64,000 nt of DNA. Origin: Tianweitania aestuarii. GTDB taxonomy: Bacteria > Pseudomonadota > Alphaproteobacteria > Rhizobiales > Rhizobiaceae. A model generated the notes under the pieces. It was not told the origin of the DNA, did no database searches, and was given only the letters and a program-made list of their open reading frames with translations. Each line of letters starts with the position of its first letter. The first letter of the stretch is position 1. The stretch lies in the NCBI RefSeq assembly GCF_018457165.1, contig NZ_JAFMNX010000004.1:186001-250000 (forward strand), written 5' to 3'. Positions 40,468 to 46,365 of this stretch are shown in pieces. A program made the translations under genes and the position numbers.

Positions 40468-40862
40468 GGGGCTGAAGCCCCTCCCCTGCCTAACCAACGG
40501 CCGCATTGCCGCCGGTTTCCGGCGCTGTAATCGTCAGGAAGGAATGTCGCTCCGATTCGACGCGACTCGTGGTCTTCTTAGCGAAGTGGCTCCATTGGAG
40601 ACGCGACCTTAATATTTGGACTGCCGAAGAGCGGCTGAAAAGATGCCGTTATGCGGATGAGCCGCAGCATGCGGTTTACTGTAACCTATTGCTTTTCCGT
40701 GGTTTTCTTCCCTTCGGCAACCTCCAGACCATGCCGACGTCGACCGCGTTAGAACTTCGTTAACCTTAAAGCTCTGGACCGCCGCCCGGAATCATGCGCT
40801 AAGCTTGACGGGAGAAGGGCATTAAAGCGGCCGTTGGCCGTCAAAGGGGTACGACAGCGACA
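40468..40862. other. 395-bp repABC upstream control region
   Basis: No gene is seen here. The region holds a CtrA-like box (40749-40764), three GANTC sites (40554-40558, 40564-40568, 40789-40793), and a short dyad CGGCC-GTT-GGCCG (40828-40840) just before repA. The last could be an operator for RepA/RepB autoregulation. It is A+T-richer than the surrounding genes. No confident -35/-10 pair could be chosen. Confidence 0.6.
40749..40764 (+). promoter_or_regulatory. CtrA-like box upstream of repA
   Basis: TTAG-AACTTCG-TTAAC matches the CtrA consensus TTAA-N7-TTAAC with one mismatch. It lies 99 bp before the repA start. CtrA is the master cell-cycle response regulator of Alphaproteobacteria. Confidence 0.55.
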
Positions 40863-42074
40863 ATGTCGAAACAGGCACCAATTGCAGCGACGGAAGATCC
40901 CGGCGACAAGATCACGCGTCATGCGCGGATGCTGTCTGGTGAGCTTCAAGCGCGCCGCGAGCAGATGTATCCCCCAAATGCCGAGAAGCAGCTCCGTTAC
41001 TTCCTGACGAACGAGGTTTCCAAGCTTACCACGATCCCGGAATCGACGTTGCGCACAATGTCGATCGAAGGAAAGGGCCCGACCCCTGCCCGGCTGGAAA
41101 ACAATCACCGCGCTTACACGCTCGCCCAGATCAATGAGTTGCGCGAGATGTTCGCCGAGATGCGGCCATCCGATCTGCGCCGCTATCTGCCAAGGAGGCA
41201 GGAAGGCGAGCACGTCCAGATCTTGGCCATCGCCAATTTCAAGGGTGGAAGCGCGAAAACCACCACCAGCGCCCACCTCGCTCATTACCTCGCCCTGCAC
41301 GGTTACCGTGTTCTGGCGATCGACCTTGATCCTCAGGCATCGCTGTCAGCCATGTTCGGCGCGCAGCCGGAGCTCGATGTCGCCGAGAACGAAACGATCT
41401 ATGGCGCACTGCGCTATGACGAAGATCGTCGGCCGATGAAAGAGATCATCCGCAAGACCTACTTTTCCGGCGTCGATCTCATTCCTGGCAATATCGAAGT
41501 CATGGAATATGAGCACGAAACGCCGCGCGCGCTGGCCGATCGGCGGACCGGCTCGCAGGAAATCTTCTTCGAGCGGTTGCGGATCGCAATTGGCGAAGTC
41601 GAGGATGATTACGACATCGTCCTTCTGGATACCCCGCCTTCGCTCGGCTTCCTGACGCTCGGCGCAATTTATGCTGCAACCGGCCTGATCATCACGGTTC
41701 ATCCCGCGATGCTCGACGTCATGTCGATGAGCCAGTTTCTTCTCATGATGGGCGACCTGATCGCCGTGATCCGCGATGCAGGCGCGACCATGCAGCAGGA
41801 CTTCCTGCGTTATCTTATTACACGTCACGATCCCAACGATCAGTCGCAGGTCCATGTCGTCGGCATGCTGCGCAGCCTTTTCGGCGAGGATGTTCTGACC
41901 CCCACCGCGGTGGAAAGCAGTGCCGTCGAAACGGCCGGCCTGGCCAAGCGGACGCTGTACGAACTGGAGTCCGGCAATATCGGCGCTGGCACCGTGCGCC
42001 GTGCGCGGGAATCCATCGACGCCGTCAACGGCCGTATCGTCGATCTCGTTGAACGAAGCTGGAACCGTACATGA
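40863..42074 (+). CDS. repA: Plasmid/chromid partition ATPase RepA (ParA family)
   Basis: A 403-residue Walker-type ATPase that partitions the replicon with RepB and represses its own operon. An N-terminal DNA-binding region (about residues 15-110) has the RepA-type segment RYFLTNEVSKLTTIPESTLR. The deviant Walker A KGGSAKTT is at 127-134, followed by AIDLDPQASLSAMFG and the Walker B-like DIVLLDTPPSLGFL. The stop overlaps the repB start by ATGA. This, together with repB and repC, defines a repABC replicon, which is restricted to Alphaproteobacteria. Confidence 0.95.
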   Translation: MSKQAPIAATEDPGDKITRHARMLSGELQARREQMYPPNAEKQLRYFLTNEVSKLTTIPESTLRTMSIEGKGPTPARLENNHRAYTLAQINELREMFAEMRPSDLRRYLPRRQEGEHVQILAIANFKGGSAKTTTSAHLAHYLALHGYRVLAIDLDPQASLSAMFGAQPELDVAENETIYGALRYDEDRRPMKEIIRKTYFSGVDLIPGNIEVMEYEHETPRALADRRTGSQEIFFERLRIAIGEVEDDYDIVLLDTPPSLGFLTLGAIYAATGLIITVHPAMLDVMSMSQFLLMMGDLIAVIRDAGATMQQDFLRYLITRHDPNDQSQVHVVGMLRSLFGEDVLTPTAVESSAVETAGLAKRTLYELESGNIGAGTVRRARESIDAVNGRIVDLVERSWNRT

Positions 42075-43075
42075 GCAAGGCACCCGGCAAAAAGTCCATT
42101 CTCGCAAGCTTCGCCGCCTACACGGCACCTCCAGGCCCGGCGCCGGAAAAAGAACAGCCGCGCGAACCGTCAGCCCCGCTGGCCCGTGTTGGTGCCGGCG
42201 TTGTTGGCGCGACGCAGCGTTCGATTGCCGAATTGCGCGCCGAGCGTGACGAGCTGAAAGCTTTGGTGGAAGCTGGCACCGGTCGCGAACTCGACCCGGC
42301 GGTCATCGACCCCTCGCCTTTTCCTGATCGCTTGCCGGATGACGATCAGACCTCGTTCGAGTCCTTCAAGGCGCTGATCGCGAGCGAAGGCCAGATCGTT
42401 CCCATCCTCGTTCGTCCAAGCCCCGGCAACCCGGATCGCTATCAGGTCATCTATGGCCATCGCCGGCTTCGTGCCGCGCGCGAGCTTGGGCTGAACGTCA
42501 AGGCGACCGTGACCGAGTTCGACGACCGCGAACTCGCTATCGCGCAAGGCATCGAGAATGCCGCGCGTCAGGATCTGAGCTGGATCGAAAAAGCCTTGTT
42601 TGCGGCGCGCATGGATGCAGCAGGCGTCAAGGCGCGCGATATTCGGTCGGCCCTGTCGATCGACGATCCTGAACTCGCCCGTTACCGTGCGGTTTGCCGC
42701 GCTATTCCAGAAGACATTATCCAGACGATCGGCCGCGCACCAAAGGCTGGCCGTACTCGCTGGGCGTCCTTCGCGAAAGCTTGCGCAGATGATGCAGCGC
42801 TCGACCGAACACGCGAAACCTTGGCAGCTGCCAAGGTTCAAGATTCCGACCGACGCTTTGTTCTGGCTCTTGAGGCTGCGACTGCAAAGGAAAAGCCCGA
42901 ACAAACCGATCTCGCTTTGAGGAACAGTGCCGGACGAACGCTTGGCCGCGCGCAATTCTCTCGCCGGGAAATCAAGCTCACGATCGAGACCAAAGAAGCT
43001 GCATCCTTCTCGGACTTCCTGCAGAACGAGCTCCCGAGCCTGGTTGAGCGCTACTACGCAGAGAAAGATGCCTGA
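42071..43075 (+). CDS. repB: Partition protein RepB (ParB family)
   Basis: A 334-residue centromere-binding protein. ParB/Sulfiredoxin-like boxes are seen as IASEGQIVPILVR near residue 108, GHRRLRAARELG near residue 133, and QGIENAARQDLSWIEKALF near residue 160, followed by a helix-turn-helix region (about 185-225). It binds parS and recruits RepA. A 22-bp parS-like palindrome lies inside its own 3-prime coding region, with a second copy just after the stop. Confidence 0.94.
   Translation: MSKAPGKKSILASFAAYTAPPGPAPEKEQPREPSAPLARVGAGVVGATQRSIAELRAERDELKALVEAGTGRELDPAVIDPSPFPDRLPDDDQTSFESFKALIASEGQIVPILVRPSPGNPDRYQVIYGHRRLRAARELGLNVKATVTEFDDRELAIAQGIENAARQDLSWIEKALFAARMDAAGVKARDIRSALSIDDPELARYRAVCRAIPEDIIQTIGRAPKAGRTRWASFAKACADDAALDRTRETLAAAKVQDSDRRFVLALEAATAKEKPEQTDLALRNSAGRTLGRAQFSRREIKLTIETKEAASFSDFLQNELPSLVERYYAEKDA
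42817..42838. promoter_or_regulatory. parS: parS-like centromere palindrome, copy 1 (inside repB)
   Basis: A perfect 22-bp palindrome with core TTGGCAGCTGCCAA. It follows the repABC parS pattern GTTNNCNGCNGNNAAC except at the two outer bases, which are C and G. It encodes the residues TLAAAKV within RepB. Confidence 0.7.
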
Positions 43076-43081
43076 TCGAAC

Positions 43082-43101
43082 ACCTTGGCAGCTGCCAAGG
43101 T
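43082..43101. promoter_or_regulatory. parS: parS-like centromere palindrome, copy 2 (repB-repC gap)
   Basis: A perfect 20-bp palindrome with the same core as the copy inside repB (TTGGCAGCTGCCAA). It begins 6 bp after the repB stop codon. The 20-base identity of two palindromes within 270 bp supports a shared RepB-binding role. Confidence 0.75.
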
Positions 43102-43165
43102 TCTGACGCGTTGCCGGTCCGCATGATCGGTATGAGGGAAAAGGAAAGGAGAGCGAAGCCCGGCA

Positions 43166-43220
43166 AAAAGAAAAGGCCCCCAAGCGGCGAACCAACCTGA
43201 GAGCCTTGTTCTCTTGTAGC
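43166..43220 (-). ncRNA. incA: repABC antisense counter-transcribed RNA (ctRNA, incA)
   Basis: A minus-strand RNA of about 55 nt in the repB-repC gap, the usual size and place of the repABC ctRNA that limits repC expression and sets incompatibility. Its 3-prime end is a 12-bp stem (43173-43207, with several G-U pairs; loop TTGGTTCGCCG) followed by a T-rich run on the minus strand. A strong promoter lies just upstream. The 5-prime end is inferred from the -10 position. Confidence 0.8.
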
Positions 43221-43226
43221 AAAGAA

Positions 43227-43255
43227 ACAATAGCCCTCTCCGATTCGGCTGTCAA
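43227..43255 (-). promoter_or_regulatory. Promoter of the ctRNA
   Basis: On the minus strand: TTGACA (43250-43255), a 17-bp spacer, then TATTGT (43227-43232). This is the best sigma-70-type promoter in the region. The spacer contains a GANTC site (43242-43246), a potential CcrM methylation target. Confidence 0.78.
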
Positions 43256-43312: not shown

Positions 43313-44665
43313 ATGCGAGAGACTGTTGTATCGACGCCCTTTGGGCGGCGGCCAATGACGCTTGCCTTGCTGGTAAGTCAGGTCGCAAACAAAGACATTC
43401 CCGACAAACCCATCTCCAAGTGGCAGGTGTTCCAGCACGTCCGGGAAGCGCGTGAGCATCTCGGAGCAAGCGATCGTGCGCTCGCCATTCTGAATGCGCT
43501 TCTGTCCTTCTATCCCGAGCCCGCCTTGAGCGCGAAGACGGGCACAATCGTCTGGCCGTCAAACGAGCAGCTCTGCGCGCGCGCCAATGGCATGTCGCTT
43601 GCAACCTTGCGTCGTCACATCGCAATCCTGCTCGATTGCGGTCTGATCCTTCGCCGCGATAGTCCCAACGGCAAACGTTTCGCACGCAAAGGCGAGGGCG
43701 GATCCGTCGTGCAAGCCTATGGCTTCGATCTCGCGCCGCTCCTGACGCGCGCAGATGAGTTCCGCCGCATGGCTGAAACCATCATCGCCGAACGCCAGGC
43801 GCTCAAGATCTTGCGCGAACGCATGACACTTTGCCGGCGTGATATCGTCAAGCTGATCGAAAGCGGCCGCGAAAACAGCATCCCGCATGACTGGAACGAG
43901 GCCGAAGAAAGCTATCGTACCATCATCGCCGAGCTTCCACGCAAGGCGACGAAGCCGATCCTCGAGCAGATCGAGGCGCAGCTCGAGACATTGCGCCGTC
44001 AGATCATCAACGCGCTGGACTCATTCATTAATGCAGCCGAGTTGAGCCGCAACGAGTCGCAATCTGAGACTCACAAACAAGAGTCAAAACCAGAATCCCA
44101 ATCTGAATCAGTTTCGGTTTTGGAAAAGAGAAATGAAGCTGCGCTTTCCCTAAGCACGAGCCTCTTCACAAAGACCGCTCAAAAGCCGGCTCTGCCGCTA
44201 CCCCTGGTTCTTGAAGCCTGCTCCAGCTTGAACGGCCTGGCGCAAGGTGGCGAAATCCGAAACTGGCGCGACTTCTCGGCCGCAACCACCGTCGTCCGCT
44301 CGATGCTCCAGATCACCCCGAGCACTTGGCAGGAGGCATGCGGCAGTCTTGGCGAACAACAGGCCGCGATTACACTCGGGGCGATCTACCAGCGATCCGG
44401 AGCGATCGTGAATCCCGGCGGATATCTGCGTGTGTTGAGCCGAAGAGCCCAGTCGGGCCGCTTTTCAGCCACACCGATGATTATGGCTCTGCGGCGAACC
44501 AGCGACAAACCGGAGTCACCGAGCGCGCCTTGTGTCGAACCAGCCATTCAATCCGGGGAGGAAAACCCGGCTGACGATATTCCGATCAGCGCCGCACTGC
44601 TGCGCAGTCTTGCCCAGTCGAACACGCTGCAAGCCAAGATGCGCCGCAACCTGATCCAACCTTGA
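43313..44665 (+). CDS. repC: Replication initiator RepC
   Basis: A 450-residue initiator essential for replication of repABC replicons. It starts MRETVVSTPFGRRPMTLALL, as in the family. A winged-helix N-terminal domain runs to about residue 170 (WPSNEQLCARANGMSLATLRRHIAILLDCGLI). A low-complexity Glu/Ser/Gln/Lys linker lies at about residues 235-275. A C-terminal domain (about 300-400) has WQEACGSLGEQQAAITLGAIYQR and NPGGYLRVL. The origin of repABC replicons is known to lie inside repC, and here the A+T-richer linker carries a GANTC array. The start is chosen at the family-like ATG, not an upstream TTG. Confidence 0.94.
   Translation: MRETVVSTPFGRRPMTLALLVSQVANKDIPDKPISKWQVFQHVREAREHLGASDRALAILNALLSFYPEPALSAKTGTIVWPSNEQLCARANGMSLATLRRHIAILLDCGLILRRDSPNGKRFARKGEGGSVVQAYGFDLAPLLTRADEFRRMAETIIAERQALKILRERMTLCRRDIVKLIESGRENSIPHDWNEAEESYRTIIAELPRKATKPILEQIEAQLETLRRQIINALDSFINAAELSRNESQSETHKQESKPESQSESVSVLEKRNEAALSLSTSLFTKTAQKPALPLPLVLEACSSLNGLAQGGEIRNWRDFSAATTVVRSMLQITPSTWQEACGSLGEQQAAITLGAIYQRSGAIVNPGGYLRVLSRRAQSGRFSATPMIMALRRTSDKPESPSAPCVEPAIQSGEENPADDIPISAALLRSLAQSNTLQAKMRRNLIQP
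44018..44109. other. oriV: GANTC (CcrM-site) array in repC, putative oriV
   Basis: Six GANTC sites in 92 bp, at 44018, 44054, 44068, 44081, 44093 and 44105. The last five are spaced 14, 13, 12 and 12 bp apart. The segment is A+T-richer than the rest of repC and encodes the Glu-Ser-rich linker. In characterised repABC plasmids the origin lies in an A+T-rich part of repC. Assignment as the origin is an inference. Confidence 0.55.
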
Positions 44666-44764: not shown

Positions 44765-45514
44765 ATGTCTGACGTAGTGAGTGAGTCCAAGGCGATCCGG
44801 CTGAAGGGACGGTCCTTCCTGGCCCTTGTTCTGACGCCCGAGCTGCCCTTCGACGAATGGCTGGCCCGCCTTGATGACCTTGCTGCGCGCTCTGCGGGTT
44901 TCTTTCTGCGCCGCCCGATCGTGCTCGACGTTCAGAACCTCGATGTCGACCGTACTCAACTGCGCACGATGATCGAACAGCTGACTGAGCGCAATGTCCG
45001 CATCATGGGCTTGGAAAATGCGCGCGCCTCCATGCTGGCAGCCGATCTCCCGCCCGCCTTGACCGACGGCCGCGCAGCCTCCGACTTCGAGCCGCCTGCA
45101 GAACGCGCGCCCGGTGAAGCACCGCAGACAAACCCGTCGCCCGCTGCTTACGAGCGCGAGCCGGTGCAAGGCCAGTTCACGGCCATGCCATCGCTGACGG
45201 TCACCGAGCCGGTCCGCTCCGGGCAGTCGCTCGTGTTTCCCGATGGTGACGTCACCGTAGTGGGATCGGTTGCATCGGGCGCGGAAATCATCGCCGGTGG
45301 CTCGATCCACGTTTACGGCGCGCTGCGGGGGAGGGCGCTTGCAGGAACGATGGGCAATTCGTCGGCACGCATTTTTTGCCGCAAACTCGAAGCAGAACTG
45401 ATTGCGATCGACGGCTTCTACAAGACGGCGGAAGACATGGAGCACGAACTGCGCGGCCAGGCCGTTCAGATCTGGCTCGAAGGCGAGGCGATCGTCGCGG
45501 AAACCTTAAGCTGA
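44765..45514 (+). CDS. minC: Septum-site inhibitor MinC
   Basis: A 249-residue inhibitor of FtsZ assembly. An N-terminal MinC_N domain (about residues 8-95) is followed by a Pro/Glu-rich linker and a C-terminal beta-helix domain (about 145-249) with VRSGQSLVFPDGDVTVVGSVASGAEI, GSIHVYGALRGRALAG and the ARIFCRKLEAELIAI segment that contacts MinD. I start at the ATG, six bases inside a TTG-opened frame. It is the first gene of minCDE, downstream of repC, and is regulated at least in part by the nearby CtrA-like box if that is real. Confidence 0.94.
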   Translation: MSDVVSESKAIRLKGRSFLALVLTPELPFDEWLARLDDLAARSAGFFLRRPIVLDVQNLDVDRTQLRTMIEQLTERNVRIMGLENARASMLAADLPPALTDGRAASDFEPPAERAPGEAPQTNPSPAAYEREPVQGQFTAMPSLTVTEPVRSGQSLVFPDGDVTVVGSVASGAEIIAGGSIHVYGALRGRALAGTMGNSSARIFCRKLEAELIAIDGFYKTAEDMEHELRGQAVQIWLEGEAIVAETLS

Positions 45515-45549
45515 CGCGAAAGCGGGCAAACGGAACACAGGAGATAACG

Positions 45550-46365
45550 ATGGGCAAAGTTATTGTAGTCACATCGGGCAAGGGCGGCGTTGGCAAGACG
45601 ACGTCGAGCGCCGCACTCGGTGCTGCCCTGGCGCAGAATGGCGACAAGGTCGTCGTCGTCGATTTCGACGTCGGTCTGCGCAACCTCGACCTCGTCATGG
45701 GCGCCGAGCGCCGCGTGGTTTATGACCTCGTCAACGTCATCCAGGGCGAAGCCAAGCTGGCGCAGGCGCTGATCCGCGATAAGCGCCTCGAAACGCTGTA
45801 CCTGCTCCCGGCCTCACAGACCCGCGACAAGGACAATCTCACGCCGGAAGGCGTCGAGAAGGTCATCACCGCTCTGCGCAAGGCGTTCGACTGGGTGATC
45901 TGCGACAGCCCGGCCGGCATCGAACGCGGCGCGACGCTCGCCATGCGTCATGCCGATGTGGCGATCGTCGTCACCAATCCGGAAGTTTCGTCCGTTCGCG
46001 ATTCCGATCGCATCATCGGTCTGCTCGATTCCAAGACCATGAAGGCGGAGCAGGGCGAGCGGATGGAAAAGCATCTGCTTCTGACCCGCTTTGACCCCGC
46101 ACGTGCCGAGCGCGGCGATATGCTGAAGGTCGAAGACGTGCTCGAAATCCTGTCCATTCCGCTGCTCGGCATCATCCCCGAGAGCATGGACGTCCTGCGC
46201 GCTTCCAATGTCGGCGCACCCGTGACCATTGCCGACAACAAGAGCGCGCCGGCACTGGCTTATTTCAACGCCGCGCGTCGATTGAAAGGCGAGACTGTTC
46301 CGCTCACCACGCCCGGCGAGAAGCGTGGTTTCTTTGGCAAGATCTTCGGAAGGAAAGCGGCATGA
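45550..46365 (+). CDS. minD: Septum-site ATPase MinD
   Basis: A 271-residue ParA/MinD ATPase. It starts MGKVIVVTSGKGGVGKTT with the deviant Walker A at residues 10-17, then DFDVGLRNLDLVMG, DWVICDSPAGIE, and a C-terminal amphipathic membrane-targeting helix (RGFFGKIFGRK). It recruits MinC to the membrane and is cycled by MinE. GGAG lies upstream of the ATG, 35 bp after minC, and the stop overlaps minE by ATGA. Confidence 0.97.
   Translation: MGKVIVVTSGKGGVGKTTSSAALGAALAQNGDKVVVVDFDVGLRNLDLVMGAERRVVYDLVNVIQGEAKLAQALIRDKRLETLYLLPASQTRDKDNLTPEGVEKVITALRKAFDWVICDSPAGIERGATLAMRHADVAIVVTNPEVSSVRDSDRIIGLLDSKTMKAEQGERMEKHLLLTRFDPARAERGDMLKVEDVLEILSIPLLGIIPESMDVLRASNVGAPVTIADNKSAPALAYFNAARRLKGETVPLTTPGEKRGFFGKIFGRKAA

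Follow-up and report, generated by a model that had tools for sequence, protein, structure and literature searches.

A dense GANTC array in the probable replication origin within repC of a Tianweitania repABC replicon

Introduction

In gammaproteobacteria, clusters of GATC sites at oriC act together with SeqA, and a refractory state of the hemimethylated origin has been proposed. The locus described here bears on how each repABC replicon of a split genome comes to be copied once per cycle. It shares with the GATC/SeqA oriC a high density of methylation sites at a probable origin, while the site, the enzyme and the initiator differ; the same analogy has been drawn for repABC origins (PMC11514494), and alphaproteobacteria are reported to be without a SeqA homologue (PMC6090056).

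The repABC-Ch2 replicon of Agrobacterium tumefaciens is one of the closest described systems. There, ori2 fires late when CcrM is depleted and over-initiates when CcrM is in excess, the latter with no measurable rise in repABC expression, and hemimethylation has been proposed to block refiring, the three GANTC sites of ori2 being invoked (PMC11514494). Because the repA and repE promoters of A. tumefaciens carry GANTC as well (PMC11514494), the over-initiation cannot be attributed to the ori2 sites alone. In vitro, binding by RepC is reported to be independent of methylation (PMC6090056, citing Pinto 2011). The Tianweitania locus resembles repABC-Ch2 in two respects: GANTC sites overlap the putative origin in repC and recur at the repA promoter and in the repB–repC gap, and CcrM and GcrA are present (here known as homologues). 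It differs in having six GANTC in 92 bp where ori2 has three, and one in the repB–repC gap where A. tumefaciens has three (PMC11514494). Both GANTC in repABC origins and the hemimethylation model are already published (PMC6090056, PMC11514494), and the Tianweitania array is thus a dense further case of a known kind. For the repABC origin itself, the published model draws its support from a single species, in which CcrM was overproduced and the sites occur.

In plasmid p42d of Rhizobium etli the minimal replicon consists of repC transcribed from a constitutive promoter, and silent mutations in nt 658–822 of repC abolish replication; an A+T-rich stretch homologous to the one described below is essential for p42d replication (PMC3155836). 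The main text of that study contains neither of the terms GANTC and methyl. Plasmid pAMI4 of Paracoccus aminophilus resembles the present locus in its uneven distribution of GANTC around repABC, against a background of one per 1132 bp (PMC9040568).

Materials and methods

Coordinates refer to the window, the whole 64-kb stretch of Tianweitania DNA that was analysed, which sits in a 299-kb contig. Genome-wide GANTC rates were taken from a 446.5-kb sample (12% of the 3.83-Mb assembly, window included). Comparative sequences comprised 63 repC reading frames from the family, with one locus left out for a truncated start (L015) and one for an ambiguous base (L066), after a fragment (L016) and a record of the window's own gene again (L017) had been dropped before reading frames were found. 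Of 117 further loci, 102 gave a RepC match and 89 passed a filter on score and coverage. The final set held 151 repC genes including the window's own, and 111 of these were retained at <85% identity; nine plasmid records, pTi_CFBP2413 and p42d among them, lie outside the 111. Loci L117–L144 contribute none to the 111, and the pooled statistics accordingly speak for the order Hyphomicrobiales. The RepC tree was built with FastTree after the columns of the probable origin block had been removed, and gain and loss of a site are indistinguishable on it. Codon analyses started repC at 43355, a choice that leaves the block untouched, and the module-wide GANTC profile used 34 loci with long flanks, the window's locus included. 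For DnaA, CtrA and parS we used what we take to be the consensus sequences, allowing C or G at the ends of parS, and YGAKTCG was presumed to represent the GcrA-type motif.

Results

The window holds repA (40863..42074), encoding a ParA-type partition ATPase, repB (42071..43075), encoding a ParB-type partition protein, and repC (43313..44665), encoding the replication initiator, all on the forward strand and in the order of a repABC operon. RepC matches Pfam RP-C and RP-C_C and scores 466 bits against NCBIfam RepABC_RepC (cut-off 150); the ATG at 43313, giving 450 aa, fits an alignment with annotated repC genes better than a start at 43355 (436 aa). The assembly yielded a single RepC gene. Another genome of the genus (G133) carries an identical repC, and among named relatives Tianweitania populi has the most similar RepC (74% identical). 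A 16-bp palindrome, CTTGGCAGCTGCCAAG, occurs twice without a difference, at 42820–42835 in repB and at 43084–43099 in the repB–repC gap; both copies are present in T. populi, and they are probable parS sites. The same gap carries on its minus strand (43163..43210) a candidate antisense RNA of RepE/ctRNA_p42d type, the place and strand of which are as expected; the match to Rfam RF00489 scores weakly (22 bits against a gathering threshold of 50, E 0.24). Downstream of repC follow minC (from about 44765) and minD (from about 45550).

Six GANTC sites fall in 92 bp of repC (44018–44109), as stated in a preliminary description of the locus. Five are in frame and encode Glu-Ser or Asp-Ser, namely GACTC at 44018..44022 (GAC TCA), GAGTC at 44054..44058 (GAG TCG), GAGTC at 44081..44085 (GAG TCA), GAATC at 44093..44097 (GAA TCC) and GAATC at 44105..44109 (GAA TCA), and the remaining GACTC at 44068..44072 lies in a different phase (gaG ACT Cac), again as first described. 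The window as a whole has 52 GANTC where 100 dinucleotide shuffles average 337, a depletion of about 6.5-fold, and the genome sample has 389, or one per 1148 bp; the baseline of one per 256 bp used in the preliminary description hence understates a density contrast that is otherwise upheld. At the sampled rate, six sites in 92 bp have a Poisson probability of 2.6e-10 per position, with about 0.001 such stretches expected across the whole assembly. The array is the densest 100-bp stretch of the sample, in which the runner-up holds three GANTC, and it is real and far above chance.

Start-to-start spacing of the six sites is 36, 14, 13, 12 and 12 bp. The array had been called phased, which holds in the sense of a near-even spacing of 12–14 bp but not in the sense of helical phasing, which was rejected on the grounds that the offsets (0, 36, 50, 63, 75 and 87 bp) are not multiples of ∼10.5 bp. 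Among the 111 repC genes the commonest distances between neighbouring sites are 12 (40 cases), 39 (24), 16 (17) and 36 bp (13), and these are set by reading frame and slot; sites sharing a frame can only be spaced in multiples of 3.

The array lies within a probable origin block (44015..44164) marked by a peak of synonymous-codon constraint. Across the 111 repC genes the excess of identical synonymous codons in the block is 0.19–0.34 per 10-codon window, reaching 0.30–0.34 at 44030–44134, against a repC median of 0.043. Because the block is A+T-rich the calculation was repeated with local codon usage as the expectation, and the 40-codon block then scored 0.256 against 0.011–0.074 in 15 other stretches. 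In comparison with T. populi, codons for the same residue are identical in 24 of 30 cases across the block and in 147 of 282 outside it, and in 17 of 18 cases in the middle of the block (codons 231–252), which, taken with the constraint peak, argues for constraint on the DNA beyond that on the protein. A+T content is 54–60% at 44050–44149 and 34–50% in the other 50-bp bins of repC; the 92-bp array itself has 54% against 38% for the window, in keeping with the A+T-richer linker of the preliminary description. In a protein-guided alignment, nt 658–822 of p42d repC correspond to 43970–44138 here, with the array inside. The array thus sits, as had been claimed, in the expected origin region of repC, homologous to the p42d stretch that silent mutations inactivate (PMC3155836), and on this homology the block is very probably the replication origin of a secondary replicon.

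Two DnaA-like matches occur in repC, each with two mismatches, and one of them (44119) is 10 bp beyond the array. No full CtrA motif (TTAAN7TTAA) was found in the 64-kb window. As to a dyad or hairpin as the basis of the array, the 66 bp that begin at codon 232 of the window's repC lack any exact 6-bp inverted repeat; the commonest inverted-repeat arm among the 111 repC genes is TTCAAA, counted 31 times. A second, smaller peak of synonymous constraint covers the first ten codons from 43355 (43355–43384; 0.214 against the median of 0.043 in the 111 genes).

The GANTC sites recur at the same positions in the 63 repC genes of the family although the proteins are mostly only ∼50% identical, and four of the six array sites occupy slots that recur across repC at about that level of identity. 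Among the 111 genes, slot 44054 is filled in 63, slot 44093 in 62 and slot 44105 in 57, with slot 44018 filled in 26, slot 44081 in 17 and slot 44068 in three (the window's gene, T. populi and L059). Slots turn over readily on the RepC tree, with at least 24 changes at 44093 and at least 22 at 44105. Genes with a GANTC at 44093 have A as its middle base in 24 cases, C in 31, G in one and T in six, and on the tree this base switches at least 17 times among sequences with the site intact; the use of all four bases fits selection for GANTC as such and not for a fixed sequence. At 44054, where G is the middle base in 57 of 63 genes, GANTC may be joined by a second constraint. Two out-of-frame slots are vacant in the window's gene: one at 44038, occupied in 21 of the 111 genes, and a GATTC slot at 43933, 5′ of the block, occupied in ten.

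The number of GANTC per block ranges from zero to six in the 111 genes, with none in five and one in 25, from which it follows that many repC origins manage with few sites or none. The window's gene has the highest count of the 111; among all 151, L042 also has six GANTC in 92 bp. Only the window's genome and T. populi pack five sites into 56 bp; in the 151 genes the tightest five after theirs span 80 bp, and the Tianweitania array is in this sense the tightest of those examined. The combination of 39- and 12-bp spacings between three sites also occurs in L095, L096 and L099, from three other families of the order, and one Paracoccus plasmid has a single GANTC in its repC, located in the block. 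Plasmid p42d shares the sites at slots 44093 and 44105, and its block holds these two only. The Ti plasmid pTi_CFBP2413, presumably of octopine type, has five GANTC in the homologous 92 bp of its repC (nt 709, 729, 745, 784 and 796) and encodes a RepC of similar length (439 aa against 450 aa here); it differs in that the slot equivalent to 44038 is filled while the sites at 44068 and 44081 are absent, AATTCA being kept at the latter.

A serine codon of the form TCN following Glu or Asp completes a GANTC, and a serine codon of the form AGY does not. A Glu/Ser-rich linker in RepC, in which Glu-Ser and Asp-Ser pairs ([ED]S) are written with TCN, would therefore yield GANTC sites that have no role as DNA, and five of the six array sites are of this kind. 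The codon-shuffle test suggested for this point gives a mixed answer when it is confined to the window's repC: six sites compare with an expectation of 3.07 under shuffling of codons across all of repC (P 0.008), and of 5.02 under shuffling restricted to the block (P 0.25), which is equivocal. The pooled test is positive. Block sequence from the 111 repC genes totals 13,443 bp and has 279 GANTC (20.75 per kb), and the remaining 121,854 bp have 88 (0.72 per kb), a 28.7-fold excess in the block where seven control palindromic pentamers range from 0.36 to 4.05-fold. The 279 sites exceed every one of 1000 codon shuffles, whether these are made over whole genes (mean 194.1, sd 8.5, max 219) or locally (mean 246.4, sd 5.8, max 263), and GANTC is avoided in repC outside the block, where the 88 sites compare with 316.9 after shuffling (min 276 of 100 shuffles).

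What decides against an origin of the sites in the protein is the choice of serine codon. Of 259 serines that follow Glu or Asp in the block, 243 are written TCN; of 225 such serines in the rest of the 111 genes, 27 are. For serines in other contexts the counts are 276 of 383 in the block and 1362 of 2139 outside it. The contrast persists when the identity threshold is lowered to 70% (73 genes; 142 of 155 in the block, 16 of 142 elsewhere), 60% (39 genes; 78 of 84 and 11 of 76) and 50% (16 genes; 30 of 32 and 4 of 31). In the other predicted genes of this genome serine is TCN in 185 of 459 cases after Glu or Asp and in 4512 of 6477 otherwise; avoidance of the GANTC-making serine is thus general in this genome and milder than in repC. 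The dipeptides are themselves enriched in the block, with 259 [ED]S against 117 expected from composition (2.2-fold) and 145 of the reverse S[ED] (1.2-fold), and the out-of-frame slot at 44038 is filled in the presence of varied residues. Since TCN is used so differently in the block and elsewhere, GANTC must be selected at the level of DNA and not only via the protein, and the evidence for such selection is clear across the order. The codon contrast largely refutes the protein-level account, which we consider very unlikely, and together with the pooled shuffles it bears out the claim of the preliminary description that protein sequence alone is insufficient. The particular argument made there, that one out-of-frame site reveals selection on DNA, is not supported: the local shuffle of the window's gene already yields about five sites, and 243 of the 279 block sites are in frame, with 33 in the next commonest phase against 26–27 in shuffles. 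Out-of-frame sites in the block therefore add little and exceed the shuffles only mildly.

The sites at 44068 and 44081 are particular to the Tianweitania replicon. The middle of the block usually reads CAC ATA CAG AAT TCA, codons found in 95, 72, 71, 88 and 107 of the 111 genes, respectively; in the window it reads CAC AAA CAA GAG TCA, with a GACTC that overlaps the first base of CAC and, 13 bp on, a GAGTC at the end that stands in place of the near-invariant AATTC. Both slots are filled in the Tianweitania orthologue pair, while elsewhere among the 111 they are filled in one and 15 genes, respectively. T. populi keeps five of the six array positions, lacking 44018, so that the spacing is conserved in a close relative as had been asked of it, and the slots recur far beyond. 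In three further repC genes from this genus group (L053, L054 and L064) the block has two to four GANTC, with slots 44068 and 44081 empty, and the change consequently belongs to the lineage of this replicon and not to the genus at large. A distant repC (L059, 49% identical) also has GANTC at both slots with the same 14- and 13-bp spacing (repC nt 702–733, 0-based offsets in the reading frame). Slot 44068 needs two changes on the tree, and an independent gain in L059 is possible.

Three further GANTC lie upstream of repA (40554, 40564 and 40789) and a single one between repB and repC (43242..43246), and relatives show peaks at both places. In the 34-locus profile GANTC reaches 5.3–7.5 per kb in three 200-bp bins upstream, where repA begins, 11.9 per kb in the 200 bp before the start of the RepC match, and 18.2 per kb in the 200-bp bin that holds the origin block, the flanking bins of which have 0.74 and 0.29. 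These three peaks agree with the statement, in the introduction of PMC11514494, that repABC loci are richer in GANTC than expected at these places. Within 4 kb upstream of the start of the RepC match, seven of the ten GANTC sites have a T. populi counterpart within 3 bp.

The genome encodes a CcrM homologue with N6_N4_Mtase and RAMA domains, the best NCBIfam match of which is a CcrM model (647 bits, below the cut-off of 830 for that model), and a GcrA homologue that scores above its cut-off (195 bits). The presence of these homologues supports the CcrM setting assumed in the preliminary description. Four of the ten YGAKTCG matches in the window are at 40553 and 40563 (upstream of repA), 43241 (between repB and repC) and 44053 (in the block).

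Discussion

There is good reason to regard the array as a set of CcrM target sites in a RepC-dependent origin that is embedded in repC, the sites being kept by selection on DNA, and an origin block with selected GANTC is a reading that we hold with high confidence. In newborn cells all six sites would be fully methylated. Firing of the origin would leave the six hemimethylated together until CcrM acts late in the cycle, and the hemimethylated state may lower the chance of a second firing, such that the replicon would be copied once per cycle. Methylated adenine may ease the opening of A+T-rich DNA. The state of the sites would more likely be read out through melting of the A+T-rich stretch, or by a reader of hemimethylated DNA, than through recognition by RepC, given the report that RepC binds in vitro irrespective of methylation (PMC6090056). 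The position and density of the sites, the selection on GANTC and the existence of CcrM and GcrA homologues are established by the present analysis. Methylation at this locus, the refractory period and its physical basis are inferred here; that the stretch is an origin, and that the level of CcrM changes initiation, are taken from relatives. Granted an origin block with selected GANTC, a methylation-timed block to refiring, of the kind proposed for A. tumefaciens but with more sites, is reasonably probable, and limitation of origin refiring by the CcrM-site array is also, overall, the best explanation available and a fairly likely one. Several observations weigh against it: in the window's gene alone the local shuffle lacks significance, the number of sites per block varies down to none, slots change often on the tree, three repC genes of the genus group have fewer sites, RepC binding is reported methylation-independent, and the promoter sites of A. 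tumefaciens may contribute to its over-initiation.

It is conceivable, though unlikely, that the sites belong instead to a sequence recognised by RepC or another initiator, or to an unwinding element, with methylation incidental. Bases outside GANTC are constrained in the block, as in AAT TCA at 44081–44086 and the CAC at 44072, and such conservation makes an initiator-binding role likely for the rest of the block. In pTiR10 the stretch bound by RepC, independently of methylation, is 150 nt long and includes an imperfect dyad close to an A+T-rich region (PMC6090056), and the Tianweitania block contains a direct repeat (GANTCNCANTCTGA), in which GAGTCGCAATCTGA and GAATCCCAATCTGA stand 39 bp apart and are alike at 12 of 14 bases, a similarity that is partly owed to GANTC itself. 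Across the 111 repC genes the two 14-mers are alike at a mean of 6.8 of 14 bases, against 4.0 for other in-frame pairs in the block. A fixed recognition sequence is nevertheless hard to reconcile with the free middle base at 44093, which fits a reader of GANTC, with the lack of comparable enrichment in the control motifs and with the avoidance of GANTC elsewhere in repC; the preference for G at 44054 qualifies this argument, as both constraints may act at that site. An effect of the array on transcription, through a GcrA-responsive or antisense promoter in repC and not on the origin, is in our view highly improbable. A GcrA homologue is encoded, the site at 44054 reads CGAGTCG and so fits YGAKTCG, and GANTC acts at the repA and repE promoters of A. 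tumefaciens (PMC11514494). However, the peaks that relatives show upstream of repA and repC are separate from the origin peak, and only two of the 63 genes with GANTC at slot 44054 carry the final G of the motif. A scan of 43900–44250 on both strands found no promoter-like site of sigma-70 type, although alphaproteobacterial promoters may differ.

Within the preferred account, in which CcrM sites limit refiring, the Tianweitania replicon may have taken a further step. The conserved middle of its block has acquired GANTC sites, and if that middle is recognised or opened by RepC, the initiator itself could read the CcrM marks, with methylation gating it directly. This would set Tianweitania apart from the Ti plasmid, for which RepC binding is reported to be methylation-independent, and we regard the idea as speculative and rather improbable.

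The codon contrast constitutes independent evidence, across Hyphomicrobiales, for selection on GANTC at this place. Neither the contrast nor the conservation of slots is reported in the passages covered of PMC11514494, PMC6090056, PMC9040568, PMC3155836, PMC3925955, PMC11711589, PMC9025767 and PMC8725594, a search that covered little of the subscription literature; as far as it extends, the serine-codon evidence is new, as are the extra Tianweitania sites, one of which replaces the near-invariant AATTCA. Exchange of TCN for AGY serine codons removes in-frame GANTC without change to the protein.

Of the 63 loci searched, with 1.5–4 kb of flanking sequence, two records of T. populi that are identical to each other, L002 and L018, are the sole ones with minC and a close minD next to repC. 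Between T. populi and the window's genome RepC is 74% identical (repC 43313–44665), and the adjacent MinC and MinD are 90% and 97–99% identical (minCD 44765–46365); either repC evolves much faster than its minC and minD neighbours, or it was exchanged. In the window, 22 of the 52 GANTC fall in 40.5–46.9 kb, around repABC and minCD.
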